Positions 13,270 through 55,233 of a stretch of DNA of 55,259 bases are shown here, piece after piece. The DNA comes from a virus. The notes under the pieces are model-generated. The model was not told where the DNA came from, ran no database searches, and saw only the letters and a program-made list of their open reading frames with translations. The translations under genes and the position numbers were made by a program. Numbering within the stretch: position 1 is the first letter of the stretch; every line of letters begins with the position of its first letter. The DNA lies in IMG/VR virus record IMGVR_UViG_3300023184_005048, positions 1 to 55,259 of that record, one strand, 5' to 3'.

Positions 13270-13277
13270 TTTAATTA

Positions 13278-13595: not shown

Positions 13596-13624
13596 ATTAT
13601 ATTATATAATTTTTATTGAAATAG

Positions 13625-14284: not shown

Positions 14285-14285
14285 A

Positions 14286-15673: not shown

Positions 15674-15677
15674 AAAT

Positions 15678-16400: not shown

Positions 16401-16417
16401 TTATTTTATTTTATTTT

Positions 16418-18704: not shown

Positions 18705-18754
18705 TATTTTTATTTATTTTTAATTTGAGTAATTCTTGTGAATACTCAATAATT

Positions 18755-20843: not shown

Positions 20844-20852
20844 TTAAATTTA

Positions 20853-21602: not shown

Positions 21603-22297
21603 TTATGAATTATTTTTTTAACTAATATCCAACACTGAGCGTTTTTATCTCTTTCATTTGTTATAATACCATTTGTCATTAGTTCTCTATAATCGGGCCA
21701 GTTTCCTGTTTCAAAAATATATTTAATATAATCCACATTTCCCCAGAAACCTAGTTCAACGATTTCAAATCCAACAGATTCCATTAGCATACAAAGACCC
21801 ATAGGTGTCAAACCATTAAAATGAAAAGGAGTCATATGTGGTATATTAATAGTTGGAACGCTAGTAAATAAATATCCACCATCTTTCATGTGATTATATA
21901 AATTAGACATTGATAAAAAAGGATTATAAAGATGTTCCAATGTTTGATTAAACATTACTAAATCAAAATCTTTTTCATTTAAGTTAAGTGTGTGTAAGTC
22001 GTTATGACCAGAATAATAGGTAGCATAATGTATATTATTATATGTTATGTATTCAAGTTCTGGATCAGTATCACAAGTTGATAAAACTTTATCAAAGTGT
22101 CCAAGATTATGTTTTTTTAACCAATCTTGAAAATCTAATATACACCAAATTCTAGGGAAGTCTTTTCCTTCCCATTTCCAATTTTTATTATTAAGTTCAA
22201 ATGGTAATACCTCAAACTTTCTATAATAGGAATCATCCTTATTAACATGTTTATGATAGATATCTACTATCTCTTCTTCTTTAAAAAACTTATTCAT
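21599..22297 (-). CDS. class I SAM-dependent methyltransferase (type 11-like)
   Basis: HFDKVLSTCDTDPELEY replaces the usual motif I, then FDLVMFNQTLEHLYNPF is the clear methyltransferase type 11 segment and DGGYLFTSVP its following strand. The motif I glycine triplet is not obvious, so activity is uncertain. The length is 232 residues. It overlaps both neighbours by four bases. Confidence 0.65.
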   Translation of the reverse strand: MNKFFKEEEIVDIYHKHVNKDDSYYRKFEVLPFELNNKNWKWEGKDFPRIWCILDFQDWLKKHNLGHFDKVLSTCDTDPELEYITYNNIHYATYYSGHNDLHTLNLNEKDFDLVMFNQTLEHLYNPFLSMSNLYNHMKDGGYLFTSVPTINIPHMTPFHFNGLTPMGLCMLMESVGFEIVELGFWGNVDYIKYIFETGNWPDYRELMTNGIITNERDKNAQCWILVKKIIHK

Positions 22298-23757
22298 ATT
22301 CTTTTAGTTATTTTTTGACAAATAGATTCCATTGTGAAATTATCTACCCAGTAATTATACAAATTATCTTGTATTTGTTTGATTCTATCTGGTGTATAAC
22401 TTGATAGAATAGTGTCTATATTTTGAATATCATTAAAATTAATTAAAACACAAAACTCATTCCAATCTATTTCATCTTCAAATGGACACCACTTATGGTC
22501 ATAAATGAATACCGGTATTGAACCCAATTGAATTGCTTCATATAATCTAAAAGAACTTCTACCATAACCTCTTGGTGCTAAACAAAAAATACTTCTAGAT
22601 GTTATGTTAATAAAATTATTAAAGTCATTTTCTGAAACAGATGATGTCCAGTTTCTAGCTGATATTACATACTTTGGATTATTAACTAAAGAATGATACA
22701 TCATATTTCTAATTGGATGTGTTATCGAACCAACAAATGAACAAAATATATCTTTTTCTAACTTAGGCTTTATTTCATCTTTTATTGGCGAACAAACTAA
22801 TGGAATAGGAATACCACCACCATTACCACCAGCATTAAATGAAATTGTATCCTTTGGTAATCTTTCTCTAATAGCATCATCGTGTTGAGCTACTGTAAAG
22901 TATTTAAGATTAGGATCTAATGTATTAATTAATTCTTGTAATCCATTAAAACAGTTGTCCACATAACAAGTTGTCCAAAAAACTGGAATATAATATCTAT
23001 CAGTTTTTATATTATTTTTTGTAAAATAATCAAAGAAGTAGTCTTCTAGATATAAACCATCATGGTACGGTGGATATGTTGGGTATTTAGGATTAGGTCT
23101 AAAATTAGAGAATATATCTATTAAATGATTTTGGTAGTTATTTTTATTATCTACTTTTTTTCTAACTATATCCATTAGTTTAATTTTATTTTCAATACCC
23201 TCTACCCAATTTGAGTGATGAACTAATATAGGATAAGGAATATTAAACTCTTGACCTTTCCAAGCAGTGTATATTAAATGACCTATTGTGAAAAATTTAT
23301 TAGAAAGAAACTTTGACTTAACCATATGAATATGCCTATTAAGTGTAGTTTGGTCTTCTCCTTCATAATTTTTTTTCATTTCGGAAAACATATTAAGCGT
23401 TGATTCATTACCTCTACAAATAAAAAATCCAGAACAATAATACTGAGCAGTATCATTTTGACAAGCAATATCATAGTCACCTAACTCTTCTATCATAGTT
23501 TCTTTGATGTTTCCAAAGAATTGAATATCAACATCTGAAAAAGCAAATAATTCGCCTTGATTTTCCTCACAAGCCTTTTCATAAAGCTCTACTTTTCTAT
23601 AACATGTTTTATCCCAGCCTTCCTTATAAAACTCACCGGTTGGACATTCTTGTGGAATCTCCAATGGAATAATTTCAAACTCATTAGGAATTGTTTTTAA
23701 AAAATAATCTTCATATAACTTTCTATGTGAAGGTGTAAATATTACATATAATTTCAT
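22294..23757 (-). CDS. two-domain glycosyltransferase: GT77-like plus exostosin-like (GT47)
   Basis: The 487-residue chain joins two different folds. Residues 1-190 are a GT-A module like GT77 enzymes, with ELFAFSDVDIQFFGN (DxD) and DQTTLNRHI. Residues about 225-487 resemble exostosin GT47 enzymes: YYIPVFWTTCY, then CSFVGSITHPIRN, IFCLAPRGYGRSSFRLYEA and LGSIPVFIYD in the family order. Such a fusion could add two successive sugars. It overlaps both neighbours by four bases. Confidence 0.75.
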   Translation of the reverse strand: MKLYVIFTPSHRKLYEDYFLKTIPNEFEIIPLEIPQECPTGEFYKEGWDKTCYRKVELYEKACEENQGELFAFSDVDIQFFGNIKETMIEELGDYDIACQNDTAQYYCSGFFICRGNESTLNMFSEMKKNYEGEDQTTLNRHIHMVKSKFLSNKFFTIGHLIYTAWKGQEFNIPYPILVHHSNWVEGIENKIKLMDIVRKKVDNKNNYQNHLIDIFSNFRPNPKYPTYPPYHDGLYLEDYFFDYFTKNNIKTDRYYIPVFWTTCYVDNCFNGLQELINTLDPNLKYFTVAQHDDAIRERLPKDTISFNAGGNGGGIPIPLVCSPIKDEIKPKLEKDIFCSFVGSITHPIRNMMYHSLVNNPKYVISARNWTSSVSENDFNNFINITSRSIFCLAPRGYGRSSFRLYEAIQLGSIPVFIYDHKWCPFEDEIDWNEFCVLINFNDIQNIDTILSSYTPDRIKQIQDNLYNYWVDNFTMESICQKITKRI

Positions 23758-24602
23758 TTAAAAATTATTGATTTTTTAGATTGTATTAAATAATAAAGTA
23801 ATATTGAAAATGAACTACCTTCCCATCCTATAAAGTTATTAACATTTAAATTTTTAGCTATTAAGAAATCAAGATGTGCGAAAATTTCACTACCATCTAT
23901 ACTACTATCTATATCCAACACATCTGATTTTTCAAATGTATAAACATCATAATCTTTTTTTAATTCATTTACAAAAGGATGGTCTGTTTCTTCCAAAGAC
24001 AATACAAGAGGTATTGATTTATCACAATTTAAATATATTTCTCTTCTATAATTTTCAATAAGATTAAGATAAGATGATAAACCACTGTTATGTACCATAT
24101 GATTTTTCATGTTAGTGTCTATTCTTAAATGAACTATATTAACCAACTTATCAGATAATCCTTTAGTAAATATAATACTATTGGATATATTTTCATATTT
24201 ATCATTAAATACTAGACTTCTAACTATTTTTATAAAATCTAATCTATTATGTAGATATGACATATATACATATGGATAAGTTTTAATAGTGTAACTATTA
24301 TTATAATCTAGGTCAATTATATCGTATAATTTATATCCATACTCACTTCTCATTTTTTTAAAATTAAATATTTCAGAAGATAACATAGAATCTCCTCTTT
24401 CAGTATCTTTAGCTAATAAATCTACATAAATATCATCAGTGTTATTATAAATAATTGTATTTATAAGCTTAAATATTTGATTACAAAGACCACAACCATT
24501 ACCGGGCCAATTAGTATCTTCTATGTTAATTGGGAAATTAATTTTTGATCTATCCCAAGGTGTATTTTGATCGGAATAAATTTGGACTGAAACTACATTC
24601 AT
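23754..24602 (-). CDS. putative fucosyltransferase-like protein (GT11 / O-FucT-like)
   Basis: NGCGLCNQIFKLINTI at residues about 35-50 resembles the first motif of GT11 and O-fucosyltransferase enzymes, and VHLRIDTN corresponds to their donor-binding HxRxD-like motif. NFIGWEGSSFSILLYYL is the usual final motif. The length is 282 residues. The match is patterned rather than certain; GDP-fucose made in the same operon makes it plausible. Confidence 0.5.
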   Translation of the reverse strand: MNVVSVQIYSDQNTPWDRSKINFPINIEDTNWPGNGCGLCNQIFKLINTIIYNNTDDIYVDLLAKDTERGDSMLSSEIFNFKKMRSEYGYKLYDIIDLDYNNSYTIKTYPYVYMSYLHNRLDFIKIVRSLVFNDKYENISNSIIFTKGLSDKLVNIVHLRIDTNMKNHMVHNSGLSSYLNLIENYRREIYLNCDKSIPLVLSLEETDHPFVNELKKDYDVYTFEKSDVLDIDSSIDGSEIFAHLDFLIAKNLNVNNFIGWEGSSFSILLYYLIQSKKSIIFK

Positions 24603-26104
24603 ATTGTTTTTTTAATTTTTTTAATCATACCATCAAATCTTTGTTTGTTGGTCATTTTATGTACAGGTGATACAACTCTATCAACCCATCTTTCTCTTTG
24701 ATGCCACATATGATATATTGTATTATTTAATAAGTTAGTTGTTTGAAATTCATCATCAAAAATTGGTTCTAAATAATGAAATTTAATACCGGCTTCTTTT
24801 AGAACCCACATAAAATCATAATACGGTTCAGTACAAGGTTTCCATATTAAACCAAGCGGTTTACCAGAAGTACCAAACTCCATATTATACTCATAATTAA
24901 CACCTCCTTTTTTTTCATAAGGATACTCTTCTATCCATTCTTGTTTAAATTGAGGTATAGACGTTCTATTAAACCAAGTATCAATACACTTTCTATTCAT
25001 TATCATAAAAAATGAATTAAAAGCCATATTGTTACCACCTCTATATTCAAAATATCCATCAGGTGGACCGGCAATATCTAGATTATTTTTAATCATATAT
25101 TGAATTAAATTTTCTATCTCATCTCTTGAGGTGATAAAGCAATCTTCATCAATATGAACATACCAATCAGCCACATATTTATATGACCTATTTAACCACT
25201 CATACCAAATAGTAAACCAACCAGTTCTACCATCAATTTTAATATGATCACTTTCGGGAAATAATTTTTTAATACATTCAGATTGTGTTTCTTGAATATC
25301 AGAAAATGTTGATGTGGTGAAAAATACTATCTTCATGTTTAGTTTTTCTTTTTTTTCAGATAGGTTTATATTTATCTGTTCTTTTTCTATAAATTTTTTA
25401 ATACTTGTACAAAATGAGTATATATCAGCGTAATTTTTTATATCACTAACTACTTTACCATCAGCTGTTGACCAAAATCCTTTTTTTGATACTATGTCTT
25501 TATATAAACTTTGACCAAACTCATTCCAAATATCACCATCATAATTAGTTTGATGTGTTTTGTGGTAAATTAATTTACTATTTATATGATAGATAGTAAA
25601 TGAATTTTTATTTGAAATAATTGGAATCCAATAATCCCACCAAGGCATTCCAATAACATAGTTTTTATTTGAAAATAGATTTACATTTTTTTTATTAAAT
25701 ATAAATATATCATAACCAGCGGTAAATGGATATGGCTCTTTCTCACCATCTAATTCATATCTAGTTGCTATTATTAAACCTTTATCTAAATATTTGTTTT
25801 TTAATAAATCACTTATATCTATACTAGAATTTAATATAATATCAGAGTTTACTATACAAGCATATTCTTTATCAGAACTCTTAATAGCTTCAAGTAACGC
25901 ATTTAACTTTATTAATTCTTTTCCTTTATAAGTATAAGTATCTTCTGTTTCTATAAAATTAACATATGGATATAAACTACCAATCTTATCAATATCATTT
26001 TTTGTATTAACAGAGTAAATAGAAAATTTTGAAGCCCAAGAAGACATAGCTTCATTCTGAGCTTCAAAATTTCCATTTGGATTTATAGTTGTAAAAATAT
26101 TCAT
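24599..26104 (-). CDS. tandem-domain glycosyltransferase
   Basis: Two GT-A-like modules lie in 501 residues. The first (1-240) has a KEYACIVNSDIIL metal site and GMPWWDYWIPII. The second starts at an internal MKIVFFTTSTFSD near residue 254 and has WYVHIDEDCFITS (DED) and GGNNMAFNSFFMIM. The second module begins like an independent gene, so the protein probably arose by fusion of two transferases. It overlaps the downstream gene by four bases and the upstream gene by one base. Confidence 0.65.
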   Translation of the reverse strand: MNIFTTINPNGNFEAQNEAMSSWASKFSIYSVNTKNDIDKIGSLYPYVNFIETEDTYTYKGKELIKLNALLEAIKSSDKEYACIVNSDIILNSSIDISDLLKNKYLDKGLIIATRYELDGEKEPYPFTAGYDIFIFNKKNVNLFSNKNYVIGMPWWDYWIPIISNKNSFTIYHINSKLIYHKTHQTNYDGDIWNEFGQSLYKDIVSKKGFWSTADGKVVSDIKNYADIYSFCTSIKKFIEKEQININLSEKKEKLNMKIVFFTTSTFSDIQETQSECIKKLFPESDHIKIDGRTGWFTIWYEWLNRSYKYVADWYVHIDEDCFITSRDEIENLIQYMIKNNLDIAGPPDGYFEYRGGNNMAFNSFFMIMNRKCIDTWFNRTSIPQFKQEWIEEYPYEKKGGVNYEYNMEFGTSGKPLGLIWKPCTEPYYDFMWVLKEAGIKFHYLEPIFDDEFQTTNLLNNTIYHMWHQRERWVDRVVSPVHKMTNKQRFDGMIKKIKKTI

Positions 26105-26877
26105 TACTTGTTTAATAATTCTTCTCTAAATTTAATTTCATCTTCTTTTAATCCACCCCAAGACCAAGATTGTCTAATCGGAACACCATATTGACTAATA
26201 TGAACAAATTGATATTCTTCTGGATAGAAAAATTCTATAAAATTACCATACATATGGTATTCACAAGAACCCCAACCTTTGTGAGTGTCGATATGATTAG
26301 ATTGGAAATCTAAATCCATAGTCCATAATTGTCTAGCATGTGAATTTAAATAGTTCCAAATACCACCCCAATTTTCATTAACCCAGTTTTGAAATAATTC
26401 TGTAGTTTTTCTAGAAAAAAACCAAGTTGGAGCAGGCATATGATCTCTTGTAGATTCTCTTTTAATAAAGAAATCAGTAGGAACTCTATGAATCTCACCT
26501 TCACCTGATTCTGACCATTCTCTGTAAAACCATTTAATTTTTCCATCAATATAATAATAAGACATATCTATGTTATTAGTAAACATAGTATCACTATCAA
26601 TTTGAAGAATATAGTCAGCATCTGTGTACTTTGTCCAATTTAACTTCACACTTTGAGCCCAAGCATATCCAATACCAACTGGGCAAGGATGTGTTTCATT
26701 TGGTAAATCTTCATAAAAGATTTTAATCGGAAGATTAGAATCAATTTTTAATTCAGTTCCGCTATCTGTAACAATAACAATGTCTCTAAAGCCTGTTACA
26801 AATTTTTCAATACTTTTGATACAATACTCCAACCAAATAAAATCACCTGGGTATGTTTTGATAAAAATGTCTGTCAT
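26104..26877 (-). CDS. putative glycosyltransferase, DSDT type
   Basis: MTDIFIKTYPGDFIWLEYC opens like a family of viral and bacterial GT-A proteins, and YILQIDSDTMFTNN is the DxD metal site. PAPTWFFSRKTTELF lies downstream. The length is 257 residues and there is no membrane segment. The donor is unknown. Confidence 0.6.
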   Translation of the reverse strand: MTDIFIKTYPGDFIWLEYCIKSIEKFVTGFRDIVIVTDSGTELKIDSNLPIKIFYEDLPNETHPCPVGIGYAWAQSVKLNWTKYTDADYILQIDSDTMFTNNIDMSYYYIDGKIKWFYREWSESGEGEIHRVPTDFFIKRESTRDHMPAPTWFFSRKTTELFQNWVNENWGGIWNYLNSHARQLWTMDLDFQSNHIDTHKGWGSCEYHMYGNFIEFFYPEEYQFVHISQYGVPIRQSWSWGGLKEDEIKFREELLNK

Positions 26878-26878
26878 T

Positions 26879-27580
26879 TTATATTTCTATTCTTTTTTCT
26901 ACTGGTAATAATTTTCTTTTATTCCAAGTTACTTCATCTTCCGACCACTTAGCATTATAAGCTTGGTCCGCCTGATCGGCATTTCTTTTACCAGCAGCAT
27001 AATGTAAATGTTCAAATACTGTAGTATCATTTATTCTATCATCATATAATAAACCTAAATCTTTTAAGTTATTATATAACTCACAATCAGAAAACATATG
27101 ATTATAAGCAGGATGATAAATGGTCATATTTAACTTTTTCAAGCAACCATAAGTCATAATTGGAATTGTAATAGCCGCATGTAACATATTAGATGAATCA
27201 GGTAATTGATAACCATCTCTAACCATTAAACCAACATCTCCTTTACTATTCAACTTATTAATTAAATAAGTGTCCCAACCTTGAGGTGCCATAAAATCAT
27301 CAGAAGCAAAAATAACAATATCACCATCATTTGCTACACCCATTTTAATCCCTAAGTTAGAAGATAACTGATAAGAAGGATAACAAACACCAATCTTATT
27401 AGTATTAACTGTTATTAGATAATTTTTCTTTAAGTAATCTCTTAATTGGTCAGCGTGTTCTTTCCAATTAACAGCAACATAAGTTTGTATGTTTTCTGGA
27501 TTATCGGCTCTTTTAATCCACTCAGTATGTGCGTGTTGAAACTGAGCAGGTCTTAGTGTACACCATAAAATATGTATCAT
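26879..27580 (-). CDS. glycosyltransferase family 2-like
   Basis: The GT-A core is indicated by IHILWCTLRPAQF, SSNLGIKMGVANDGDIVIF followed by the acidic SDDFMAP metal site, and a YDDRINDTTVFEHLHY C-terminal segment. The length is 233 residues. It overlaps the GDP-mannose dehydratase gene by four bases, being the first transferase after the fucose-donor genes. Confidence 0.65.
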   Translation of the reverse strand: MIHILWCTLRPAQFQHAHTEWIKRADNPENIQTYVAVNWKEHADQLRDYLKKNYLITVNTNKIGVCYPSYQLSSNLGIKMGVANDGDIVIFASDDFMAPQGWDTYLINKLNSKGDVGLMVRDGYQLPDSSNMLHAAITIPIMTYGCLKKLNMTIYHPAYNHMFSDCELYNNLKDLGLLYDDRINDTTVFEHLHYAAGKRNADQADQAYNAKWSEDEVTWNKRKLLPVEKRIEI

Positions 27581-28605
27581 ATACTATTTATATTTTTAAT
27601 ATCATGCTCCATCATGATTTTAACTAACTCTTCAAATTTAACTTTAGGTTCCCATCCTAAAACAGTTTTAGCTTTTGTATAATCACCAATAAGTAAATCA
27701 ACCTCAGACGGTCTCAAATACTTTTTATCTAATTCTACTATAACTAATCCATCTACTAAGCCTTTCTCATTTTCTCCTTCACCTTCCCAAGTTAAATTCC
27801 AACCACATTCTTTACAAGCCAATTCAACAAACTCTTTAATTGTATGTGTTTCATTAGTTGAAAGAACATAATCATCTGGAGTATCTTGTTGTATCATTAA
27901 CCACATACCATAAACAAAGTCTTTAGCATAACCCCAATCTCTTTTAGAGTAAAGATTACCTAATCTTAATTTAGGAAATTCTTGACCGTTATCTAAACAT
28001 CTTTTAATCTCTCCTAATGCTAAAGTGATTTTACGAGTAACAAATGTTTCACCTCTTCTTTCACCTTCGTGATTAAAAAGAATACCGTTACTAATATGTA
28101 AACCATAAGCTTCTCTGTAGTTTTTACATATCCAGAATGAATATAATTTAGCAACACCATAAGGACTTCTTGGATGAAAAGGTGTTACTTCTGTTTGAGG
28201 CACTTCTTTAACCAAACCATACATTTCTGATGTACAAGCATTATAGAATCTAGCATTAGGACAATGCTTTCTATAAGCCTCAATAAATCTAAGTGTACCC
28301 ATAGCATCAACTTGACCAGTATATTCTGGTAATTCAAATGATACTTTTACATGTGACTGTGCCGCTAGATGATAAATCTCATCTGGTTTAATTTCACTCA
28401 TAAGTCTATCAAGACAAAGTGAATCAGTCATATCACCATAGTGTAATTTAATTTTGTTATAGATATGATTAATTCTACCAGTATTGATAGTAGATGATCT
28501 TCTAACAATACCGTGTACTTCATATCCTTTCTCAAGTAATAACTCGGCTAAATAAGAACCATCTTGTCCCGTTATACCCGTTATAAAAGCTTTCTTATTT
28601 GACAT
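27577..28605 (-). CDS. gmd: GDP-mannose 4,6-dehydratase
   Basis: The 342-residue length and sequence fit GMD closely: NADP-binding GITGQDGSYLAE from residue 10, HGIVRRSST at 31-39, catalytic TSEMYG at 125-130 and the Tyr149-x3-Lys153 pair. It converts GDP-D-mannose to GDP-4-keto-6-deoxymannose, the substrate of the adjacent GDP-fucose synthase. It overlaps that gene by 11 bases. Whether GDP-mannose comes from the host is not visible. Confidence 0.95.
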   Translation of the reverse strand: MSNKKAFITGITGQDGSYLAELLLEKGYEVHGIVRRSSTINTGRINHIYNKIKLHYGDMTDSLCLDRLMSEIKPDEIYHLAAQSHVKVSFELPEYTGQVDAMGTLRFIEAYRKHCPNARFYNACTSEMYGLVKEVPQTEVTPFHPRSPYGVAKLYSFWICKNYREAYGLHISNGILFNHEGERRGETFVTRKITLALGEIKRCLDNGQEFPKLRLGNLYSKRDWGYAKDFVYGMWLMIQQDTPDDYVLSTNETHTIKEFVELACKECGWNLTWEGEGENEKGLVDGLVIVELDKKYLRPSEVDLLIGDYTKAKTVLGWEPKVKFEELVKIMMEHDIKNINSI

Positions 28606-41886: not shown

Positions 41887-42270
41887 ATGGAAAAAAAGAA
41901 AAGACCTGATAGTTTTGTAGAAAATCGAATGAGTAAGACTTATCCAACGGAAATTGGCGCACCAAAATTTGAGCCAGATAATATTAGTCTATTTAAAATT
42001 GAAAAAACTTCTAAGATAAAAAAATACTATTCGTCAAAATTTGAAGAAATGACGAAAGAGTATGAAAAGCTAATGTCAGAAATTAAAATGAATGAAAGAC
42101 TTTATATGGCTACGCATAACTTTACACCAATCTCTGGTGAAATTTATCACTTATATAAAAAGGAATCCAATGAAGAATTCCTTTCTTTAATATCTCCGGA
42201 ACAATGGAAAAAATTTGAGTTTATCGGCTCTTTCAAATTTTTATCTGATGGAAGATGGGAGGTAGCTTAA
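41887..42270 (+). CDS. DUF2452-like protein
   Basis: The 127-residue protein fits this small family: TEIGAPKFEPD near the start, NERLYMATHNFTPISGEIYH in the middle, and LSLISPEQWKKFEFIGSF before the end. The family has no known activity. The sequence TATAAATA lies seven bases before the ATG. Its stop codon overlaps that of the convergent GlnRS gene. Confidence 0.7.
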   Translation: MEKKKRPDSFVENRMSKTYPTEIGAPKFEPDNISLFKIEKTSKIKKYYSSKFEEMTKEYEKLMSEIKMNERLYMATHNFTPISGEIYHLYKKESNEEFLSLISPEQWKKFEFIGSFKFLSDGRWEVA

Positions 42271-43871
42271 CCTACCCACCCTTCTTTCAAACTTACCGTT
42301 TTATTGAAACTTTTACCATCAGTATCTAAAATATAATACCCTTTTCTCATCATTTGAACTGGCTCCTTGACGTTTAAAACGTGAGGCTCAAAGATTGCCT
42401 TATCATTAATTATAAGTGAACCTGGGTTAATATAATTGATAAAATCATCTTCATTTTTATCTGGTGATTCATCATTAAATAATCTTTCATATTCATTTAC
42501 TCTAACTCTAACTCCGTGTTCAGCAGATACCCAGTGAATAGTTCCTTTAATTTTTCTTTCAAAAGTCATACCCGATCTTGTTAAAGGATCATAAGTACAC
42601 CTAATCTCAATAATTTCTCCTAATTCATTCTTTATAACTTCATTAGCCTTAATAACATAAGCACCTTTTAATCTTACTTCACCACCTAATTTTAATCTGT
42701 GGAATTTGTTATTGGCTTCTTCTCTGAAATCTTCCGCCTCAATAAATAATTCACCACTAAAAGGAATCATTCTCACTCCAGCACTTTCATCACCAGGATT
42801 GTTTTCAACCTCAACCATTTCAGTTCCCATATCCCAATTTGTAATAACTAACTTAACTGGCTCCATGACTCCCATTAATCTATTAGCAACTACATTCAAA
42901 TCAGTTCTTAAACATTCTTCTAAAAGTAAGTAAGAAACAACAGACTCTTTTCTAGTAACAGAAATTCTATCACAAAAATCTTTAATAGCATTTGGTGTAA
43001 AACCTCTTCTTCTTAATCCAGAAATAGTTGGCATTCTTGGATCATCCCAACCCGTAACATAAGATTCTTCTACAAGTCTTTTTAACTTTCTCTTTGACAT
43101 AACTGTATAGTCAATGTTCAAACGAGCAAACTCAGTTTCTTCTGGTAATGAATTTTCTAAATCACAATTTTCTAACACCCACATATATAAAGGTCTATGA
43201 ACTTCAAATTCTAAAGTACAAAGTGAATCAGTGATACCTTCTTTATAATCAGATAAAGGATGAGCAAAGTCATACATTGGATAAATCTTCCAAGTATCAC
43301 CAGTTCTGTGATGTGACTTAGAGATTATTCTATAAATAACTGGATCTCTTAAAATCATATTTGGTGAAGTCATATCAATATTAGCTCTCAATATTTTAGA
43401 ACCTTCAGAGAATTCACCTAATCTCATTCTATTAAATAAGTCTAAGTTTTCTTCTACTGATCTAGACTTGTAAGGTGAGTCTTTACCAACTGAAGTTGGA
43501 GTTCCTTTCATTAAAGCAATTTCTTCAGATGTTGAATCATCAACATAAGCTAAGCCTTTTTTAATTAAAGTAACGGCACAATTATAAAGAAATTCAAAGT
43601 AATCAGATGTATAGAAAATATTAGCTGGTTTGTAGCCAAGCCATTCTATATCTTTTATAATTGACTCTACATAGTGAGTATCTTCAGTAGTTGGATTTGT
43701 ATCATCAAATCTTAGATTACAAGGTCTATTATACTTTTCAGCTAATCCGAAATTTAGTATAATGGATTTAGCGTGACCAATATGGAGATAACCATTTGGC
43801 TCTGGTGGAAATCTTAATGTTAGTTTATCAAGATTGTTTTTGTCTAATATTTTATCTTCAATGAAATTCAT
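42267..43871 (-). CDS. glnS: glutaminyl-tRNA synthetase
   Basis: The 534-residue enzyme is near full length (about 550 in E. coli). FPPEPNGYLHIGH at 21-33 is the class I HIGH motif with the GlnRS-specific lead, and VMSKRKL at 257-263 is the KMSKS loop. The C-terminal beta-barrel domains are present. It charges tRNA-Gln. Three tRNA-Gln(TTG) genes lie directly upstream on the same strand, 19 bases before the start, behind a poly-Gln leader and attenuator, so synthetase and substrate tRNAs are probably expressed together. Confidence 0.95.
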   Translation of the reverse strand: MNFIEDKILDKNNLDKLTLRFPPEPNGYLHIGHAKSIILNFGLAEKYNRPCNLRFDDTNPTTEDTHYVESIIKDIEWLGYKPANIFYTSDYFEFLYNCAVTLIKKGLAYVDDSTSEEIALMKGTPTSVGKDSPYKSRSVEENLDLFNRMRLGEFSEGSKILRANIDMTSPNMILRDPVIYRIISKSHHRTGDTWKIYPMYDFAHPLSDYKEGITDSLCTLEFEVHRPLYMWVLENCDLENSLPEETEFARLNIDYTVMSKRKLKRLVEESYVTGWDDPRMPTISGLRRRGFTPNAIKDFCDRISVTRKESVVSYLLLEECLRTDLNVVANRLMGVMEPVKLVITNWDMGTEMVEVENNPGDESAGVRMIPFSGELFIEAEDFREEANNKFHRLKLGGEVRLKGAYVIKANEVIKNELGEIIEIRCTYDPLTRSGMTFERKIKGTIHWVSAEHGVRVRVNEYERLFNDESPDKNEDDFINYINPGSLIINDKAIFEPHVLNVKEPVQMMRKGYYILDTDGKSFNKTVSLKEGWVG

Positions 43872-43889
43872 AATTTTTATATTTTTTAG

Positions 43890-43960
43890 TTGTCTCGCTA
43901 GGATTCGAACCTAGACTAGAAGAGTCAAAATCTTCTGTGCTGCCGTTACACTACGAGACA
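43890..43960 (-). tRNA. tRNA-Gln(TTG), copy nearest glnS
   Basis: Acceptor TGTCTCG/CGAGACA, anticodon arm GAAGA/TCTTC with loop TTTTGAC, and T loop TTCGAAT. It is similar to the third copy, with paired compensating changes in the acceptor stem, so both are likely functional. Confidence 0.9.
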
Positions 43961-43967
43961 TTTTTGT

Positions 43968-44038
43968 TGCTCCACTTGGACTCGAACCAAGCTCATCTGT
44001 TTCAAAGACAGATATGATCACCCATATACTATGGAGCA
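43968..44038 (-). tRNA. tRNA-Gln(TTG), middle copy
   Basis: Acceptor TGCTCCA/TGGAGCA, anticodon arm TCTGT/ACAGA with loop CTTTGAA, T loop TTCGAGT. It is clearly diverged from the two flanking Gln tRNAs. Confidence 0.9.
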
Positions 44039-44046
44039 AAATGTTG

Positions 44047-44117
44047 TTGTCTTACTAGGACTCGAACCTAGAATAGAAGAGTCAAAATCTTCTGTGTTGC
44101 CATTACACTATAAGACA
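44047..44117 (-). tRNA. tRNA-Gln(TTG), promoter-proximal copy
   Basis: Acceptor TGTCTTA/TAAGACA, loop TTTTGAC with anticodon TTG, T loop TTCGAGT. It lies directly behind the attenuator terminator. Confidence 0.9.
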
Positions 44118-44119
44118 AT

Positions 44120-44156
44120 AAAAAAACCCTACTCAATCAGATTGAATAGGGTTTGT
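44120..44156 (-). terminator. attenuator terminator before the tRNA-Gln/glnS module
   Basis: AAACCCTATTCAAT pairs with ATTGAGTAGGGTTT (14 bp with one G-T wobble) across the loop CTG, followed by a run of T on the minus strand. It lies between the poly-Gln leader and three tRNA-Gln genes. Confidence 0.9.
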
Positions 44157-44182
44157 AAAGTTTTAACAATACGATACCGTTA

Positions 44183-44236
44183 TCAATCTGTTCGATTAAT
44201 TTGTTGTTGTTGTTGGTATTGTGATGTTGTTGTCAT
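44183..44236 (-). CDS. 17-residue poly-glutamine leader peptide
   Basis: The frame reads MTTTSQYQQQQQINRTD, with one CAA, a Tyr codon and then five CAA codons in a row. CAA is the codon read by the three tRNA-Gln(TTG) encoded just downstream. The stop codon lies about 27 nt before the base of the terminator stem. The last two codons plus stop contain CAGATTGA, complementary to TCAATCTG in the terminator. The layout is that of an amino-acid attenuation leader; translation has not been shown. Confidence 0.75.
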   Translation of the reverse strand: MTTTSQYQQQQQINRTD

Positions 44237-44267
44237 AATTCTATTTATTAATATTTTGTTTCTTTGT

Positions 44268-44343
44268 CGAGATGGCAGGATTCGAACCTGCGAGTTCTCC
44301 TGCTCCCAAAGCAGGCGGGGTAACCGGACTCCCCAACATCTCG
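44268..44343 (-). tRNA. tRNA-Pro(TGG)
   Basis: Acceptor CGAGATG/CATCTCG, anticodon arm CCTGC/GCAGG with loop TTTGGGA, T loop TTCGAAT. Confidence 0.92.
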
Positions 44344-44350
44344 TATTTTA

Positions 44351-44426
44351 GCGGTCCCGACGGGATTCGAACCCGCACCTCGCACCGTGACAGGGTGGTA
44401 TTGTAAACCATTCAACCACGGGACCG
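44351..44426 (-). tRNA. tRNA-Asp(GTC), first of two
   Basis: Acceptor CGGTCCC/GGGACCG, anticodon loop CTGTCAC closed by CCACC/GGTGC-type pairing, T loop TTCGAAT. A 63-nt spacer with small hairpins separates it from the next tRNA upstream. Confidence 0.88.
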
Positions 44427-44488
44427 TTTTTGAGAATTCTTTTACTCTATTCTCTAAAGAGTATCTTTTGCCTCAAAGGCTACTTGTT

Positions 44489-44562
44489 GCGGTCTAGAAG
44501 GGTTTCGATCCCTCTACTTCTGCGTGACAGGCAGATATGATAGCCACTTCACCACTAGACCA
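44489..44562 (-). tRNA. tRNA-Asp(GTC), second, with altered T loop
   Basis: Acceptor TGGTCTA/TAGACCG, anticodon arm TCTGC/GCAGA with loop CTGTCAC. The T loop reads ATCGAAA, with A in place of the near-universal T54. Confidence 0.8.
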
Positions 44563-44654: not shown

Positions 44655-44689
44655 ACAAAAAACCCAGTTAATCTTTCGACTAACTGGGT
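44655..44689 (-). terminator. attenuator terminator before the Asp/Pro tRNA block
   Basis: ACCCAGTTA and TAACTGGGT pair perfectly around a ten-base loop, followed by a T run on the minus strand. It lies between a leader frame and the first tRNA. Confidence 0.9.
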
Positions 44690-44712: not shown

Positions 44713-44811
44713 TTAACCTAAAACTACATAGTTAGCCTCTTTCGAACCAGGATCCTGATCGATTACAACTTGCGGTTGCGGGTTAACGATATTTAAGTTT
44801 AAGTTTTTCAT
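44713..44811 (-). CDS. 32-residue Pro/Gln/Asp-rich leader peptide
   Basis: The peptide starts MKNLNLNIV and its middle reads NPQPQVVIDQDP at residues 10-21, in which eight of twelve residues are Pro, Gln or Asp. These are the amino acids of the assigned tRNAs downstream (Asp x2, Pro, then Gln x3). Codons 26-28 contain CTAACT, complementary to AGTTAG in the terminator 5' arm. The stop precedes the terminator by 23 nt. The start lies after a CTTTTTAATATATAC element shared with the leader at the right end of the window. Confidence 0.7.
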   Translation of the reverse strand: MKNLNLNIVNPQPQVVIDQDPGSKEANYVVLG

Positions 44812-50535: not shown

Positions 50536-50565
50536 AAGCCTCTGATTTTTCAGAGGCTTTCTTTT
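50536..50565. terminator. bidirectional intrinsic terminator
   Basis: AAGCCTCTGA and TCAGAGGCTT pair closely with A and T runs on either side, ending both the virion gene (plus) and the GluRS gene (minus). Confidence 0.85.
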
Positions 50566-52190
50566 TATAAAGTATTTTGAATTCTTATTAATGACTCATC
50601 CCTACCAAGGATTTCCATTGTTGATACCAAGTCTGGACCCGGCATACCACCTGTGATAGCAACTCTTAAAGCTGGCATTATCTTACCCATCTTAACACCC
50701 ATTTCTTGACAAAGATCGTGAATATTTTGTTTAATAGTCTCAGCATTCCAATCAATTGACTTTGTTATAAAAGCACTAAATACTTTCTTATAATCATCAG
50801 TCAATAACTTAACATCTGTTTCTTTAATCACAATTGGCTTAAAGAAGATATCAGCAACCACTTGTAAATCTTTTGTGAAGACCGCTCTCTTTTTACAGAT
50901 ATCCACAATCTTAGAAAGATTTTCTGGTGAATATTGATATTGGTCACCCATATCAATATTAGAAAGAAGTTCATCATCACTTCTATAAGTGTTCAAATGT
51001 TGAGCATTAAAGTGTTTAGCTTTTTCAACATCAAAACGAGCACCGGCTTTATGAACGTGAGATAAATCAAACTTAGAAATCATATCAGCCATTGTCATTA
51101 CTTCAGTAGTATCAGTTGGAGACCAACCTAATAGTACTAAGAAGTTTAACATAGCTTGTGGTTCATAACCTTCATCTTTGAAACCAAGATATTTAACCAT
51201 ATTACCTTTATCATCTTCTCCTTCACCACCCATCGGGAAAGCAGGAATACCCATAGAAAGAGCTTTACGTTTAGACAACTTGCCTTTACCATCTGGATTT
51301 AAAATCAATGGTAAATGAGCAAAAGTAGGAGCAGTCCAACCAAATGCTTCATATAACATTAAATGAAGCGGAGTTGAAGGTAGCCATTCTTCACCACGAA
51401 TAACGTGAGTTGTTCCCATATCATGGTCGTCACAAACATTAGCCATATGATATGTTGGAATACCATTTGATTTAACTAAAACTTTATCATCAGTTTGATT
51501 TGTATTCAAACTAACTTCACCACGAATAACATCAGTAACAGTAATTGTTCTGTTTTCTGGTGTTTTGAAACGAATTACAAATGGAGTTTTATTAGCAAGT
51601 AAAGCATCAACTTCTTCTTTTGGTAAAGAAAGTGAATTTCTCATTGACATACGAGTTTTAGCATCGTAAGCAAAGTGAGCATTTTCAGCTCTAACTTTAG
51701 CAATATCTTCTTCAGTATCAAAAGCATAATAAGCCATACCCTTATCTAAAAGAGTTTGAATATGTTCAGAGTAATCTCTTTCCGATTGACGGTAAGGACC
51801 ATTAGGACCACCTTTCCAAGGCGCATAGTCTGGTTCAATACCACACCACTCTAAAGAATCTTGGATATACTTTTCAGCATCACCAACAAATCTTTTTTGG
51901 TCAGTATCTTCAATACGAACATAAAATATACCACCGTGTTTTTTAGCAAACAGATAGTTATAAAGGGCAGTACGAACTCCACCGATGTGTAGAAATCCTG
52001 TTGGTGAAGGAGCAAAACGAGTTACTACTTTACCGGAAGGTGTAATAGTATCTAAAGCATCCAAACTTTTTTGAACATCAGGGGATTGTCCATCATCATG
52101 AGTCGCAAGTGTATGAAGAGCATCGTCACTCATTTCACTTTTTGATTCAGCGAGAAATTTATCTCTATTTTTAATGTATTTCATGTCCAT
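50565..52190 (-). CDS. gltX: glutamyl-tRNA synthetase with tagged N-terminal extension
   Basis: The catalytic enzyme begins near residue 54: RFAPSPTGFLHIGG at 58-71 (HIGH motif) and KLSKRKA at 304-310 (KMSKS loop), with the GluRS-type HVIRGEEWL between. The chain is 541 residues, about 70 longer than E. coli GltX. Roughly 53 extra residues lie at the N-terminus, starting MDMKYIKNRDKFLAES. This resembles the shared tag with a cleavage-like LAE-S site. The extension is otherwise hydrophilic and contains no known domain. The gene sits alone, without an attenuator, apart from the tRNA arrays. Confidence 0.93.
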   Translation of the reverse strand: MDMKYIKNRDKFLAESKSEMSDDALHTLATHDDGQSPDVQKSLDALDTITPSGKVVTRFAPSPTGFLHIGGVRTALYNYLFAKKHGGIFYVRIEDTDQKRFVGDAEKYIQDSLEWCGIEPDYAPWKGGPNGPYRQSERDYSEHIQTLLDKGMAYYAFDTEEDIAKVRAENAHFAYDAKTRMSMRNSLSLPKEEVDALLANKTPFVIRFKTPENRTITVTDVIRGEVSLNTNQTDDKVLVKSNGIPTYHMANVCDDHDMGTTHVIRGEEWLPSTPLHLMLYEAFGWTAPTFAHLPLILNPDGKGKLSKRKALSMGIPAFPMGGEGEDDKGNMVKYLGFKDEGYEPQAMLNFLVLLGWSPTDTTEVMTMADMISKFDLSHVHKAGARFDVEKAKHFNAQHLNTYRSDDELLSNIDMGDQYQYSPENLSKIVDICKKRAVFTKDLQVVADIFFKPIVIKETDVKLLTDDYKKVFSAFITKSIDWNAETIKQNIHDLCQEMGVKMGKIMPALRVAITGGMPGPDLVSTMEILGRDESLIRIQNTL

Positions 52191-53207: not shown

Positions 53208-53229
53208 TTTTATTGGTTTTTTTATCGAG

Positions 53230-53310
53230 TATCAGAAGAGAGACTTGAACTCTCATACCGTTAGGCGCTGGCTTTTGAAACCAGTGTGTATACCATTCCA
53301 CCATTCTGAC
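53230..53310 (-). tRNA. tRNA-Leu(CAA)
   Basis: Acceptor GTCAGAA/TTCTGAT, anticodon arm CTGGT/GCCAG with loop TTCAAAA, class II variable arm, T loop TTCAAGT. Confidence 0.88.
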
Positions 53311-53315
53311 ATTTG

Positions 53316-53385
53316 TAGCGTGTGTGGGGTTCGAACCCACTTATCAGTCCTTATGAGAGACAGCTCTTTTCCACTAAGCCACGCC
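53316..53385 (-). tRNA. tRNA-Met(CAT), elongator type
   Basis: Anticodon loop CTCATAA and T arm GTGGG/CCCAC with loop TTCGAAC. Position 1 pairs in the acceptor and the stem under the loop lacks the three G-C pairs of initiators, so it should be an elongator (or an Ile tRNA if C34 is modified). Confidence 0.8.
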
Positions 53386-53395
53386 ATATTATTAG

Positions 53396-53478
53396 TGCCC
53401 AAAGAGAGACTCGAACTCTCACGTCCTTTCGGACACCGGCTTCTTAGACCGGCGTGTCTACCATTCCACCATCTGGGC
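53396..53478 (-). tRNA. tRNA-Leu(AAG)
   Basis: Acceptor GCCCAGA/TTTGGGC, anticodon arm CCGGT/GCCGG with loop CTAAGAA, a class II variable arm with GTCC/GGAC and T loop TTCGAGT. A at position 34 is unusual for a bacterial Leu tRNA. Confidence 0.85.
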
Positions 53479-53482
53479 ATTT

Positions 53483-53557
53483 GAGCAGATACCCAGAGTC
53501 GAACTGGAATCTCGTCCGTACCAAGGACGTGTAATCACCGATTATACGATAACTGCT
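53483..53557 (-). tRNA. tRNA-Thr(GGT)
   Basis: Anticodon arm CGTCC/GGACG with loop TTGGTAC; T loop TTCGACT. The acceptor pairs AGCAG with CTGCT, with mismatches next to the T stem. Confidence 0.85.
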
Positions 53558-53562
53558 TGTTG

Positions 53563-53649
53563 TAGCGGGGGCAGGATTCGAACCTGACGTGTCACTTGCG
53601 CAACCCTGGGTTATGAGCCCAGTGAGTTTGACCTCTACTCTACCCCGCG
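53563..53649 (-). tRNA. initiator tRNA-fMet(CAT) with extended variable region
   Basis: The body starts CGCGGGGT and ends CCCCCGCTA, so position 1 C faces T instead of pairing, the initiator hallmark (C-A in E. coli). The anticodon arm CTGGG/CCCAG around CTCATAA has the three G-C pairs needed for initiation. The variable region is about 18 nt rather than about 5. Confidence 0.8.
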
Positions 53650-53654
53650 ATATG

Positions 53655-53739
53655 TACCTGGAGCGGGACTCGAACCCGCACGGGCATTTCTGCCCACTGG
53701 ATTTTAAGTCCAGCGTGTCTACCATTCCACCACCCAGGC
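53655..53739 (-). tRNA. tRNA-Leu(TAA)
   Basis: Acceptor GCCTGGG/TCCAGGT, anticodon arm CTGGA/TCCAG with loop CTTAAAA, class II variable arm GGGCA/TGCCC, T loop TTCGAGT. Confidence 0.92.
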
Positions 53740-53755
53740 AGGTGATTTTATTTTG

Positions 53756-53839
53756 AGCCGATGGAGGGACTCGAACCCCCGTTGGACTATTCGTCTCTGG
53801 TTTACAAAACCAGTGCTGTCGCCACTGAGCCACATCGGC
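53756..53839 (-). tRNA. tRNA-Thr(TGT) with long variable arm
   Basis: Acceptor GCCGATG/CATCGGC, anticodon arm CTGGT/ACCAG with loop TTTGTAA. The variable region is about 16 nt with a GAC/GTC mini-stem, unlike normal class I Thr tRNAs. Confidence 0.82.
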
Positions 53840-53866
53840 ATATAATGGAGGAAAGTCTAAAGAGTG

Positions 53867-53939
53867 ATTTTACTGAAGGACTTGAACCTTCAAAAGTTTG
53901 TTTTTAAGACAAATGTGTATACCATTTCACGAAGTAACA
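53867..53939 (-). tRNA. class I tRNA with TAA anticodon, flanked by complementary arms
   Basis: The acceptor TGTTACT/AGTAAAA (six of seven pairs), a short 3-bp D stem, the anticodon arm TTTGT/ACAAA with loop CTTAAAA, and the T arm GAAGG/CCTTC are present. The variable region is only five bases, so the body is not that of a Leu tRNA although the anticodon is. Outer sequences (AAGAGTG/CACTCTT and AATGGA/TCCATT) continue the helix beyond the acceptor with bulges. Confidence 0.7.
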
Positions 53940-53964
53940 CTCTTAATCACCATCCATTATTTTG

Positions 53965-54037
53965 TTGCCTTGGTGGGTAACGATCCCACTACCTCTTCCA
54001 TGTCAAGGAAGTGCTCTCCCATTGAGCTACAAGGCAA
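53965..54037 (-). tRNA. tRNA-Val(GAC) with swapped T loop
   Basis: Acceptor TTGCCTT/AAGGCAA, anticodon arm CTTCC/GGAAG with loop TTGACAT. The T arm GTGGG/CCCAC closes loop ATCGTTA instead of TTCGANN. Confidence 0.85.
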
Positions 54038-54044
54038 TTTTTGA

Positions 54045-54189
54045 CAGTAGGGTGGGAATCGAACCCACCTTCCCAATCCGAACTAAATGACATTTTCTAG
54101 AATATCAAATAATCAAGTTTGGTTTTTAACCCGGACCAGTTCTTTATGTGGCTTCTCTAGGAGTTACCACCTAATATAGGGTCCTACTG
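54045..54189 (-). ncRNA. 145-nt tRNA-like RNA with giant variable region
   Basis: A perfect acceptor CAGTAGG/CCTACTG and a perfect T arm GTGGG/CCCAC with loop TTCGATT enclose a 5' D-arm-like stretch with GGTGG and then more than 60 extra nucleotides. TCCGGGTT and AGTTCGGA can pair inside the extra region as an 8-bp arm, with further hairpins within. A four-pair GCCA/TGGT stem with a ten-base loop could be a modified anticodon arm, but no anticodon is clear. Confidence 0.6.
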
Positions 54190-54194
54190 ATTTG

Positions 54195-54266
54195 AGCTTC
54201 TTACCGGTAACGATCCGATTTCTCTAGTTTACAAGACTAGCGCATCACCATTAATGCTTAAGAAGC
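54195..54266 (-). tRNA. tRNA-Thr(TGT), second, with swapped T loop
   Basis: Acceptor GCTTCTT/AAGAAGC, anticodon arm CTAGT/ACTAG with loop CTTGTAA. T loop ATCGTTA. Confidence 0.85.
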
Positions 54267-54271
54267 GTTTG

Positions 54272-54354
54272 AGGTACTGACTGGGTTCGAACCAGTGTGA
54301 CAGATTTTGCAGATCTGTGCCTCTCGTCTTTCGACACCACTCGGCCACAGTACC
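54272..54354 (-). tRNA. tRNA-Cys(GCA) with hairpin in the D loop
   Basis: Acceptor GGTACTG/CAGTACC, anticodon arm CAGAT/ATCTG with loop CTGCAAA, T loop TTCGAAC. The D loop is enlarged by a GTCGAAAGAC mini-hairpin. Confidence 0.85.
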
Positions 54355-54360
54355 ATTTGT

Positions 54361-54432
54361 TGGAATAGTAGGACTCGAACCTACAACCTTTCGCGTATCA
54401 GGCGAATGCTCTAACCAGTTGAGCTATATTCC
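54361..54432 (-). tRNA. tRNA-Ile(GAT)
   Basis: Acceptor GGAATAT/TATTCC-type, anticodon arm TTCGC/GCGAA with loop CTGATAC, T loop TTCGAGT; a normal class I body. Confidence 0.92.
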
Positions 54433-54439
54433 AATTTTG

Positions 54440-54512
54440 TAGTCCCGGTCGGTTACGATCCGACTCCCTCCACTATGTAACAGTGGCGCTCCCCCGATTG
54501 AGCTACAGGACT
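54440..54512 (-). tRNA. tRNA-Val(TAC) with swapped T loop
   Basis: Acceptor AGTCCTG/CGGGACT, anticodon arm CCACT/AGTGG with loop GTTACAT. T arm GTCGG/CCGAC closes loop ATCGTAA. Confidence 0.85.
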
Positions 54513-54517
54513 ATTTG

Positions 54518-54603
54518 CTGATGAGGTGGGACTCGAACCCACGGTGGACTTTAATGTCGTCTGGTTAACAGCCAGGCCCTTTCGCCGCTCAGGACACCCA
54601 TCA
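54518..54603 (-). tRNA. tRNA with Asn anticodon (GTT) on a class II body
   Basis: Acceptor TGATGGG/CTCATCA with one mismatch, anticodon loop CTGTTAA closed by CTGG/CCAG, and a 17-nt variable arm with GAC/GTC. The D region (CCTGAGCGGCGAAAGGG) is also of class II type. Confidence 0.75.
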
Positions 54604-54609
54604 ATTTTG

Positions 54610-54692
54610 TACCGAAGGTGGGACTCGAACCCACACACCCTTTCGGGTACTAGCTCCTAAGGCTAGCGTGTCTACCATTCCACCACTTCGGC
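54610..54692 (-). tRNA. tRNA-Leu(TAG)
   Basis: Acceptor GCCGAAG/CTTCGGT, anticodon arm CTAGC/GCTAG with loop CTTAGGA, class II variable arm ACCC/GGGT, T loop TTCGAGT. Confidence 0.92.
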
Positions 54693-54696
54693 ATCT

Positions 54697-54801
54697 GAGT
54701 GTGATAGGGTATTCTCCTACAGTTGTGGTGGTTGACTAGTCCCATTGTCCACTCCAGTACTTCGTCTGGTGCTGTTTTAGTTTATCAGCGTTTACACACT
54801 C
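54697..54801 (-). ncRNA. 105-nt RNA with tRNA-like ends but no canonical T loop
   Basis: A perfect 7-bp end stem GAGTGTG/CACACTC is in register with the tRNA array. Near the 3' end TAGG/CCTA encloses AGAATAC where a T arm would lie. Inside, CCAG/CTGG and GTGG/CCAC stems can form. No anticodon can be assigned. Confidence 0.45.
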
Positions 54802-54806
54802 TTTGT

Positions 54807-54878
54807 AGTCTCCACGGGATTCGAACCCGTATTCTCAGTTTAGAAGACTGATGTCCTATCCAGTTGGACGAGGAAACT
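54807..54878 (-). tRNA. tRNA-Arg(TCT)
   Basis: Acceptor AGTTTCC/GGAGACT, anticodon arm with CAGT/ACTG and loop CTTCTAA, T loop TTCGAAT. Confidence 0.9.
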
Positions 54879-54883
54879 ATTTG

Positions 54884-54955
54884 CTCACTGGGGGAATTAC
54901 GATATCCCGACCTGACGCTTAACAGGCGCCTGCTCTACCTCTGAGCTACCAGTGA
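54884..54955 (-). tRNA. tRNA-Asn(GTT) with swapped T loop
   Basis: Acceptor TCACTGG/CCAGTGA, anticodon arm GGCGC/GCGTC with loop CTGTTAA. T loop ATCGTAA; the pair closing that loop is T-T. Confidence 0.82.
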
Positions 54956-54961
54956 ATGTTG

Positions 54962-55046
54962 TCGGTAGGGTGGGATTTGAACCCACGTTGTGATTTCTCA
55001 CCTAGTGTATCAGACTAGTCCCTGAAGACCGCTCGGGTACCTACCG
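54962..55046 (-). tRNA. tRNA with Ile anticodon (GAT) on a class II body
   Basis: Acceptor CGGTAGG/CCTACCG, anticodon arm CTAGT/ACTAG with loop CTGATAC, and a variable hairpin GTGA-GAAA-TCAC. The D region ACCCGAGCGGTCTTCAGGG resembles class II tRNAs. It is the promoter-proximal tRNA of the array. Confidence 0.75.
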
Positions 55047-55061: not shown

Positions 55062-55091
55062 AAAAAAACCCTCAGATTTTGTGTCTGAGGG
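55062..55091 (-). terminator. attenuator terminator before the large tRNA array
   Basis: CCCTCAGA pairs with TCTGAGGG around an eight-base loop, followed by seven T on the minus strand. It stands between a leader frame and the first tRNA. Confidence 0.9.
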
Positions 55092-55122
55092 TTTCGAGTA
55101 TTCTTTATTAAAATTTGTTATA

Positions 55123-55233
55123 TTAACTAACAAATCGTTTAGATATGACGAAGCCCTCAGAGCGTCTAATACATAACGTATTATTCACCACTGTCAGTGT
55201 ATTCATGTTCATATTTAAATTCATTGTTTTCAT
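55123..55233 (-). CDS. 36-residue leader peptide matched to the tRNA array
   Basis: The peptide begins MKTMNLNMNMNTLTVVNNTL and continues CIRR. Of its first 24 residues 23 are Met, Asn, Leu, Thr, Val, Cys, Ile or Arg, exactly the amino acids of the assigned tRNAs behind it. Codons 25-29 contain TCTGAGGGCTTCG, which can pair with CGAAACCCTCAGA at the terminator, 12 of 13 positions. The stop lies 31 nt before the terminator. The upstream element CTTTTTAATATATAC matches the other leader. The promoter is beyond the window. Confidence 0.7.
   Translation of the reverse strand: MKTMNLNMNMNTLTVVNNTLCIRRSEGFVISKRFVS

Follow-up and report, generated by a model that had tools for sequence, protein, structure and literature searches.

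The tRNA clusters of a number of huge phages are, judging from the layout of their leader sequences, very probably under the control of ribosome-mediated transcription attenuators that respond to a lack of charged tRNA. We analysed a 55,259-nucleotide stretch of viral DNA (IMG/VR record IMGVR_UViG_3300023184_005048, positions 1 to 55,259; the window) together with related contigs. The window holds three units consisting of a leader ORF and a terminator: a Gln leader before three tRNA-Gln genes and glnS, a Pro/Asp/Gln leader before tRNA-Asp and tRNA-Pro genes, and an Asn/Thr/Leu/Val/Met/Cys/Ile/Arg leader before a cluster of at least 16 tRNAs. The earlier note described the Gln unit and missed the other two (44811-44662 and 55233-55066). 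The features of the three units are as follows.

44183-44236, minus strand: Gln leader ORF MTTTSQYQQQQQINRTD, six Gln codons, five of them consecutive CAA; kept in eight contigs
44183-44190, minus strand: putative antiterminator segment CAGATTGA of the Gln unit, complementary to 44145-44138
44124-44154, minus strand: predicted intrinsic terminator of the Gln unit, 14-bp arm followed by a T-run
43889-44117, minus strand: three tRNA-Gln (ttg), from tRNA detection
42267-43871, minus strand: glnS, glutaminyl-tRNA synthetase, 534 aa, 53% identity to the annotated GlnRS of Escherichia phage D6
44859-44889, minus strand: Bacteroidota-type promoter TTTG-N19-TATATTTG 5′ of the Pro/Asp/Gln leader, from a motif match
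44713-44811, minus strand: Pro/Asp/Gln leader ORF MKNLNLNIVNPQPQVVIDQDPGSKEANYVVLG; GGCTAACT (44737-44730) is complementary to AGTTAGTC (44685-44678)
44662-44689, minus strand: predicted terminator of the Pro/Asp/Gln unit, from a terminator scan of the sequence
44266-44561, minus strand: tRNA-Asp, tRNA-Asp and tRNA-Pro behind the Pro/Asp/Gln leader, from tRNA detection
55123-55233, minus strand: multi-amino-acid leader ORF MKTMNLNMNMNTLTVVNNTLCIRRSEGFVISKRFVS; TCTGAGGG (55161-55154) is complementary to CCCTCAGA (55091-55084)
55066-55094, minus strand: predicted terminator of the multi-amino-acid unit, from a terminator scan of the sequence
53229-55046, minus strand: tRNA cluster Ile, Asn, Arg, Leu, Asn, Val, Ile, (Cys-like), Thr, Val, Leu, Thr, Leu, Met, Thr, Leu, Leu, from tRNA detection

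For the Gln unit (minus strand, 44236-42267), the earlier note had claimed a 17-codon frame with five consecutive CAA codons, followed by a 14-bp terminator, three tRNA-Gln genes and glnS, and a complementarity between the leader stop region and the terminator. All of these elements were confirmed. The frame runs from ATG (44236-44234) to TGA (44185-44183), with one CAA codon at 44221-44219 and five consecutive ones at 44215-44201; the latter form the sole run of four or more CAR codons on either strand of the whole window. The 14-bp arm and T-run lie at 44154-44124, the tRNA-Gln(ttg) genes at 44117-44046, 44038-43966 and 43960-43889, and glnS at 43871-42267. CAGATTGA (44190-44183) overlaps the leader stop codon and shows perfect reverse complementarity to TCAATCTG (44145-44138), which lies within the terminator 5′ arm. 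Folding, which the note had suggested as a check for mutually exclusive structures, gave −27 kcal/mol for the 123-nt leader (z = −5.07), and none of 200 dinucleotide shuffles folded as well. In this fold, AUUAAUC, located directly after the CAA run, holds CAGAUUGA; in the alternative fold, CAGAUUGA is paired with the terminator arm. With a ribosome positioned on the CAA codons, AUUAAUC would be covered and CAGAUUGA thereby freed for the terminator arm. The predicted folds have the classical layout of mutually exclusive hairpins.

In both further units of the window, the leader residues are those of the tRNAs behind, and a segment after the control codons is complementary to the terminator 5′ arm. 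TTTAATATATA was seen 5′ of many leader starts (window positions 44830-44811 and 55249-55233, and relatives), often after a small AAAGG..CCTTT hairpin; its role may be that of an additional promoter or of an element that stabilises the 5′ end. No matching leader was seen in front of the second synthetase gene of the window, which is gltX-like (541 aa, 50565-52190), and single tRNAs, for example several tRNA-Met, are without such a leader. Genes of glycosyltransferase-, methyltransferase- and nucleotide-sugar-like type form an extended series at 8879-28605 on the minus strand.

A search with glnS revealed seven IMG/VR loci plus LR745206 and LR756502 (635 and 642 kb), and a search with the leader pattern revealed ten more contigs. 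The resulting dataset comprised 78 leaders in 17 huge-phage contigs including the window; five more leaders came from G018, which was added after the tests had been set up. The leader set was curated by hand as to the choice of ORF in L059/L064, the start of L026, and the inclusion of L065 despite a weak terminator. Seven leader families recur and jointly cover all 20 amino acids.

Phe/His/Trp/Lys, for example HKHFSKSNKWF
Arg/Ser, for example SSSSRSS
Glu/Tyr, for example YYYEGE
Ile/Gly/Ala, for example IAIIGGGAGA
Asn/Thr/Leu/Val/Met/Ile/Arg/Cys, window member MKTMNLNMNMNTLTVVNNTLCIRRSEGFVISKRFVS
Asp/Pro/Gln, for example NPQPQ..DQD
Gln, window member MTTTSQYQQQQQINRTD

The poly-Gln leader, its terminator and the pairing are kept in all eight contigs that have tRNA-Gln, a closely related glnS and complete upstream sequence (the window, G001-G005, W01 and W02; L002 was left out since its contig ends too soon). 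The frame is preserved in these contigs with synonymous CAA/CAG changes, and G004 and G005 keep the unit even though it is separated there from the Asp/Pro tRNA cluster. A relative that retained tRNA-Gln and glnS and had lost the leader, which the earlier note had named as a refuting case, was looked for among these relatives and none was found. The pN/pS of whole leaders was 0.57-0.84, which is weak evidence. Searching viral contigs with a strict DNA pattern of the Gln leader gave no match, because the spacing varies. None of the ten contigs found by leader pattern has a comparable glnS, and G009 alone gave a match, weak and partial; where these contigs have tRNA-Gln, the gene sits in clusters whose leader has Gln among other residues. 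G006 (L007) has a glnS 74% identical to that of the window, with neither tRNA-Gln nor leader adjoining and one tRNA match in the 344-kb contig. The one cellular match of a genome-wide search with the His/Lys/Phe/Trp leader pattern (L073) was rejected as a chance match; it falls within an unrelated reading frame of the opposite strand. Two huge phages have single tRNAs with anticodon CTA, named Pyl by ARAGORN (L018:1631 and L024:1633), which are candidate amber-suppressor tRNAs. Endonuclease-like ORFs, HNH-type by eye, lie between leader/terminator and tRNA genes in L060 and L065 (5′ of tRNA-Gln and tRNA-Pro).

Leader composition follows tRNA content. When the assignment of clusters to leaders was shuffled within each contig, the matched fraction was 0.383 for the true assignment vs 0.197 for permuted ones (sd 0.016; 0 of 200,000 permutations; 67 leaders, 15 contigs); p-values, here and below, were computed without regard to phylogeny. 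The true assignment was the best one in 14 of 15 contigs: it ranked first of 5040 in G001, W01 and W02, and second of 5040 in G003. In the subsequently added contig G018 it was the best of 120. Rearranged clusters have correspondingly composed leaders. Fused Glu/Tyr and Ile/Gly/Ala clusters carry fused leaders (IGYIAEGGYEAG, IEAIGYAYEAG and ISIEARGYEAYEAG), of which IEAIGYAYEAG stands in front of a Glu/Tyr/Ile/Gly/Ala cluster. In G013 (L065), tRNA genes reshuffled into the order Gln, Pro, Thr, Arg(acg), Val, Ile, Cys, Thr, Leu lie behind the leader TILNIIQTVCRQTPNGQ (ILNIIQTVCRQTP).

The match extends to synonymous codons. ATA vs ATT/C was used as Ile control codon in a ratio of 15:4 before clusters whose Ile tRNAs are all Ile(tat) and 0:12 before those with Ile(gat) alone (p = 1.6e-5). 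Among Arg control codons, AGA predominates with Arg(tct) and CGN with Arg(acg). A number of control codons are seldom used in the genes of the window: GTG accounts for 23 of 61 Val codons in control blocks, CCG for 14 of 27 Pro codons, and GGC/GGG for 24 of 33 Gly codons, vs 4%, 5% and 6%, respectively, in window ORFs. In sum, the control codons match the role of the genes behind them.

A leader ORF was present at 59 of 60 terminators preceding tRNAs vs 13 of 68 other terminators. Some of these 13 are telling, because HFHFHF precedes hisS-pheS and NNRN precedes asnS. All three aspS genes examined likewise have DD-containing leaders. The leaders and terminators with cognate codons before hisS-pheS, asnS and the three aspS genes (L021:9653, L031:4454, L089:3112, L090:2704 and L091:2806) all show the same switch in the masked folding described below; the synthetase gene names rest on PF00152, PF13393 and our reading of the proteins. 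Two related short leaders (LHTYK..) with terminators were seen before other genes (L029:4155 and L034:12731); each has one His codon, and one lies ~1.1 kb upstream of hisS. The motif TTTG/TTAGG-N17-22-TANNTTTG, the promoter motif of Bacteroidota, was found upstream of 42 of 68 leaders (0.06 expected), mostly 45-59 nt before the leader ATG. Leaders without it are mostly those of internal units of longer operons.

Duplexes between leader and terminator arm were stronger than those formed by shuffled leaders (mean z −2.78, n = 68). Within families, leaders paired with their own arms gave −691 kcal/mol vs −591 kcal/mol for swapped pairs (0 of 20,000 swaps for the families combined, and 0 of 20,000 for the Phe/His/Trp/Lys family alone). 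The swap test was not significant for the Gln (2781 of 20,000), Asp/Pro/Gln, Glu/Tyr or fused family taken alone. Masked folding was then calculated with a ribosome of 30 nt (assumed footprint) at every codon and the transcript folded before the terminator 3′ arm exists, as an equilibrium rather than a kinetic model. With the A site on control codons, the antiterminator had ~8-13 expected pairs, and it collapsed ~1-3 codons past the last control codon. Control-codon density was 66% before vs 19% after the collapse, and 67 of 68 leaders agreed in direction, these counts being non-independent across related phages. The final codons of the Asn/Thr/Leu family, Ile and Arg, fall at the margin of the switch. 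The predicted antiterminator would exclude the terminator, and in the folding model the position of the ribosome on the control codons would decide between the two structures. A hairpin of the 1:2 type that sequesters the antiterminator segment is predicted for the Gln leader of the window, and many leaders form the antiterminator in the partial transcript without any ribosome. Read-through is therefore predicted without translation in these leaders, unlike in the trp operon.

Such leaders are also present in independent, cultured phages of Cellulophaga and Maribacter (phi38:1, Calle_1, phi4:1, phi17:2, phi10:1 and Panino). phi38:1, which had been fetched as a negative control, proved positive, with three leaders.

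TIMNIATDIRTKGVK, before Lys, Ile, Gly, Met, Asp, Thr, Val, Arg(tct)
YNNFSWYSNCSFSSYN, before Ser, Ser, Asn, Phe; Trp is annotated in the close relative Calle_1, and Tyr and Cys were assigned by eye
LLHQEPLEQLRLP, before Pro, Glu, Gln, His, Leu, Arg(acg)

The amino acids of each phi38:1 cluster are all present in its own leader. phi4:1 has three leaders with the same sets in changed order, one of them with a GTG start. The leaders of Maribacter phage Panino are QRLHQELEQP and AATGIAIIGRTKDK, and in phi10:1 WSYSCFSYSF precedes Tyr and Phe. No such leaders were found in the genomes of crAss001 and T4, and phi14:2 has no tRNAs.

At the sequence level, the attenuator reading is supported by the ORFs, their codon content, the terminators, complementarity, geometry, promoters and conservation; from these we infer leader translation, stalling, read-through, and charged-tRNA shortage as the signal. 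RNA polymerase would make a leader with a short ORF and an intrinsic terminator, followed by a tRNA cluster or aminoacyl-tRNA synthetase genes, and the ORF would be rich in codons for the amino acids of the tRNAs behind. When any one charged tRNA of the set is scarce, the ribosome would stall at its codon, the segment behind the control codons would remain free to pair with the terminator 5′ arm, and the tRNA genes would be transcribed. When all charged tRNAs are ample, the ribosome would pass the last control codon and cover the segment, so that the terminator forms and no tRNAs are made. In the Gln unit such control would act on tRNA-Gln and glnS; in the other families it would act on sets of amino acids that jointly make up all 20. 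The proposal of the earlier note that the phage senses shortage of Gln-tRNA was supported by the conservation in eight contigs and by the masked-folding switch; it proved too narrow, as the same logic was found before other tRNA clusters and aminoacyl-tRNA synthetase genes and the Gln unit is one of seven families. The signal might be loss or cleavage of host tRNA, rare isoacceptors, or amino-acid limitation. Because the product is tRNA, the loop could mend tRNA loss (host-defence cleavage, rare isoacceptors) better than lack of an amino acid. Given the agreement between leader amino acids and the tRNAs behind, extra tRNA is probably made by the phage only under a shortage of that kind at the ribosomes.

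A less specific control, in which the leaders sense general translation capacity and RNA polymerase passes whenever the ribosome is slow or missing, would agree with the antiterminator formed in many partial transcripts without a ribosome, since general translation failure would then open the units too. It leaves unexplained why leader residues match the tRNAs of their own cluster and not those of other clusters, why Ile codon choice is anticodon-specific, and why rearranged clusters have rearranged leaders, and we regard it as improbable. Even less credit is due to the view that the short ORFs are there for their peptides, which would be functional or cause nascent-chain arrest in the manner of the TnaC or Erm leaders, with the amino-acid match being secondary. 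One family does have a well-kept core, HKHFSKSSKWFS; however, other families keep composition and not order (NLNMNMNTLTVV vs NTNMMNLTLNVV; QRLHLQELEQP vs LLHQEPLEQLRLP), and we rejected arrest because it requires a fixed residue order.

Direct binding of uncharged tRNA by a T-box-like RNA would suit the same genes, which are T-box targets in Firmicutes, and the terminator/antiterminator layout is common to both. However, an Rfam search at gathering score returned tRNAs only, both for the window and for the phi38:1 cluster; a single leader would need to bind up to eight tRNA species, and the conserved reading frames would have no explanation. We give this mechanism hardly any weight. Low-complexity CAA repeats next to ordinary terminators of upstream genes were also considered, the finding having started from a simple repeat. 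Chance of this kind is excluded by the permutation, codon, swap and promoter tests and is at odds with a leader conserved with CAA/CAG changes in eight contigs; its probability is close to nil. Attenuation by charged-tRNA shortage remains the preferred reading.

Attenuators of this class control pheST, trpS and leuS, those of Streptomyces trpS/leuS being predicted (PMC1262725). The phage units share with E. coli pheST (leader peptide pheM) and Streptomyces trpS/leuS the leader ORF with cognate codons, the terminator, the antiterminator and the synthetase target. Those systems are bacterial, respond to one amino acid and include no tRNA genes, whereas the present units are phage-borne, have tRNA clusters as their first genes and mostly have several amino acids per leader. 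The multivalent attenuators of ilvGMEDA and ilvB, which control biosynthesis, have Leu, Val and Ile codons in one leader. The phage leaders resemble them in combining codons for several amino acids; however, the ilv leaders hold three amino acids of one pathway, whereas the phage leaders hold up to eight unrelated ones, following tRNA content. In the theory of trp and his attenuators, the stall position decides between antiterminator and terminator, the fraction of regulatory codons is high, and synonymous choice matters (PMC1183508). The phage units would share these three properties; unlike trp and his, their folding suggests read-through without translation, not superattenuation. T-box riboswitches would have the tRNA-charging input, the terminator output and aminoacyl-tRNA synthetase targets in common with the phage units, which have no T-box family match and would depend on an ORF.

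Al-Shayeb 2020 (PMC7162821) described the tRNA arrays and synthetases that huge phages carry, and LR745206 and LR756502 fit the >634-kb genomes of its Mahaphage clade, with Bacteroidetes hosts. The main text of that paper contains neither "attenuat" nor "leader", and regulation of the arrays is not described there. Our search of the open-access journal literature found no description of such attenuators on phage tRNA clusters. The mechanism is of a kind known from trp and pheST. What appears to be new is its application to phage tRNA clusters through leaders that fit several amino acids at once.

It has long been asked why phages express tRNAs of their own, and when. In the phages studied here, each tRNA cluster appears to be opened by slow reading of its own codons. 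We consider it likely that this amounts to phage-wide control of codon supply: during infection, several multivalent attenuators would jointly gauge the availability of all 20 aminoacyl-tRNAs and activate solely the cluster (and synthetase) for the slow codon, for example after host tRNA has been cleaved by a defence system, and evolution would have re-composed the leaders upon reshuffling of tRNA genes in several unrelated lineages of Bacteroidota phages. The system is present in cultured phages of Cellulophaga baltica (phi38:1, phi4:1, phi17:2 and phi10:1) and is thus directly testable. The rule that leader composition equals tRNA content offers a simple way to find such units elsewhere. If the proposal is true, phage tRNA arrays would be a feedback-controlled supply and not a constant supplement; ribosome-mediated attenuation, and hence close coupling of transcription and translation, would operate in Bacteroidota hosts; and attenuation would extend to tRNA genes and to as many as eight amino acids per leader.
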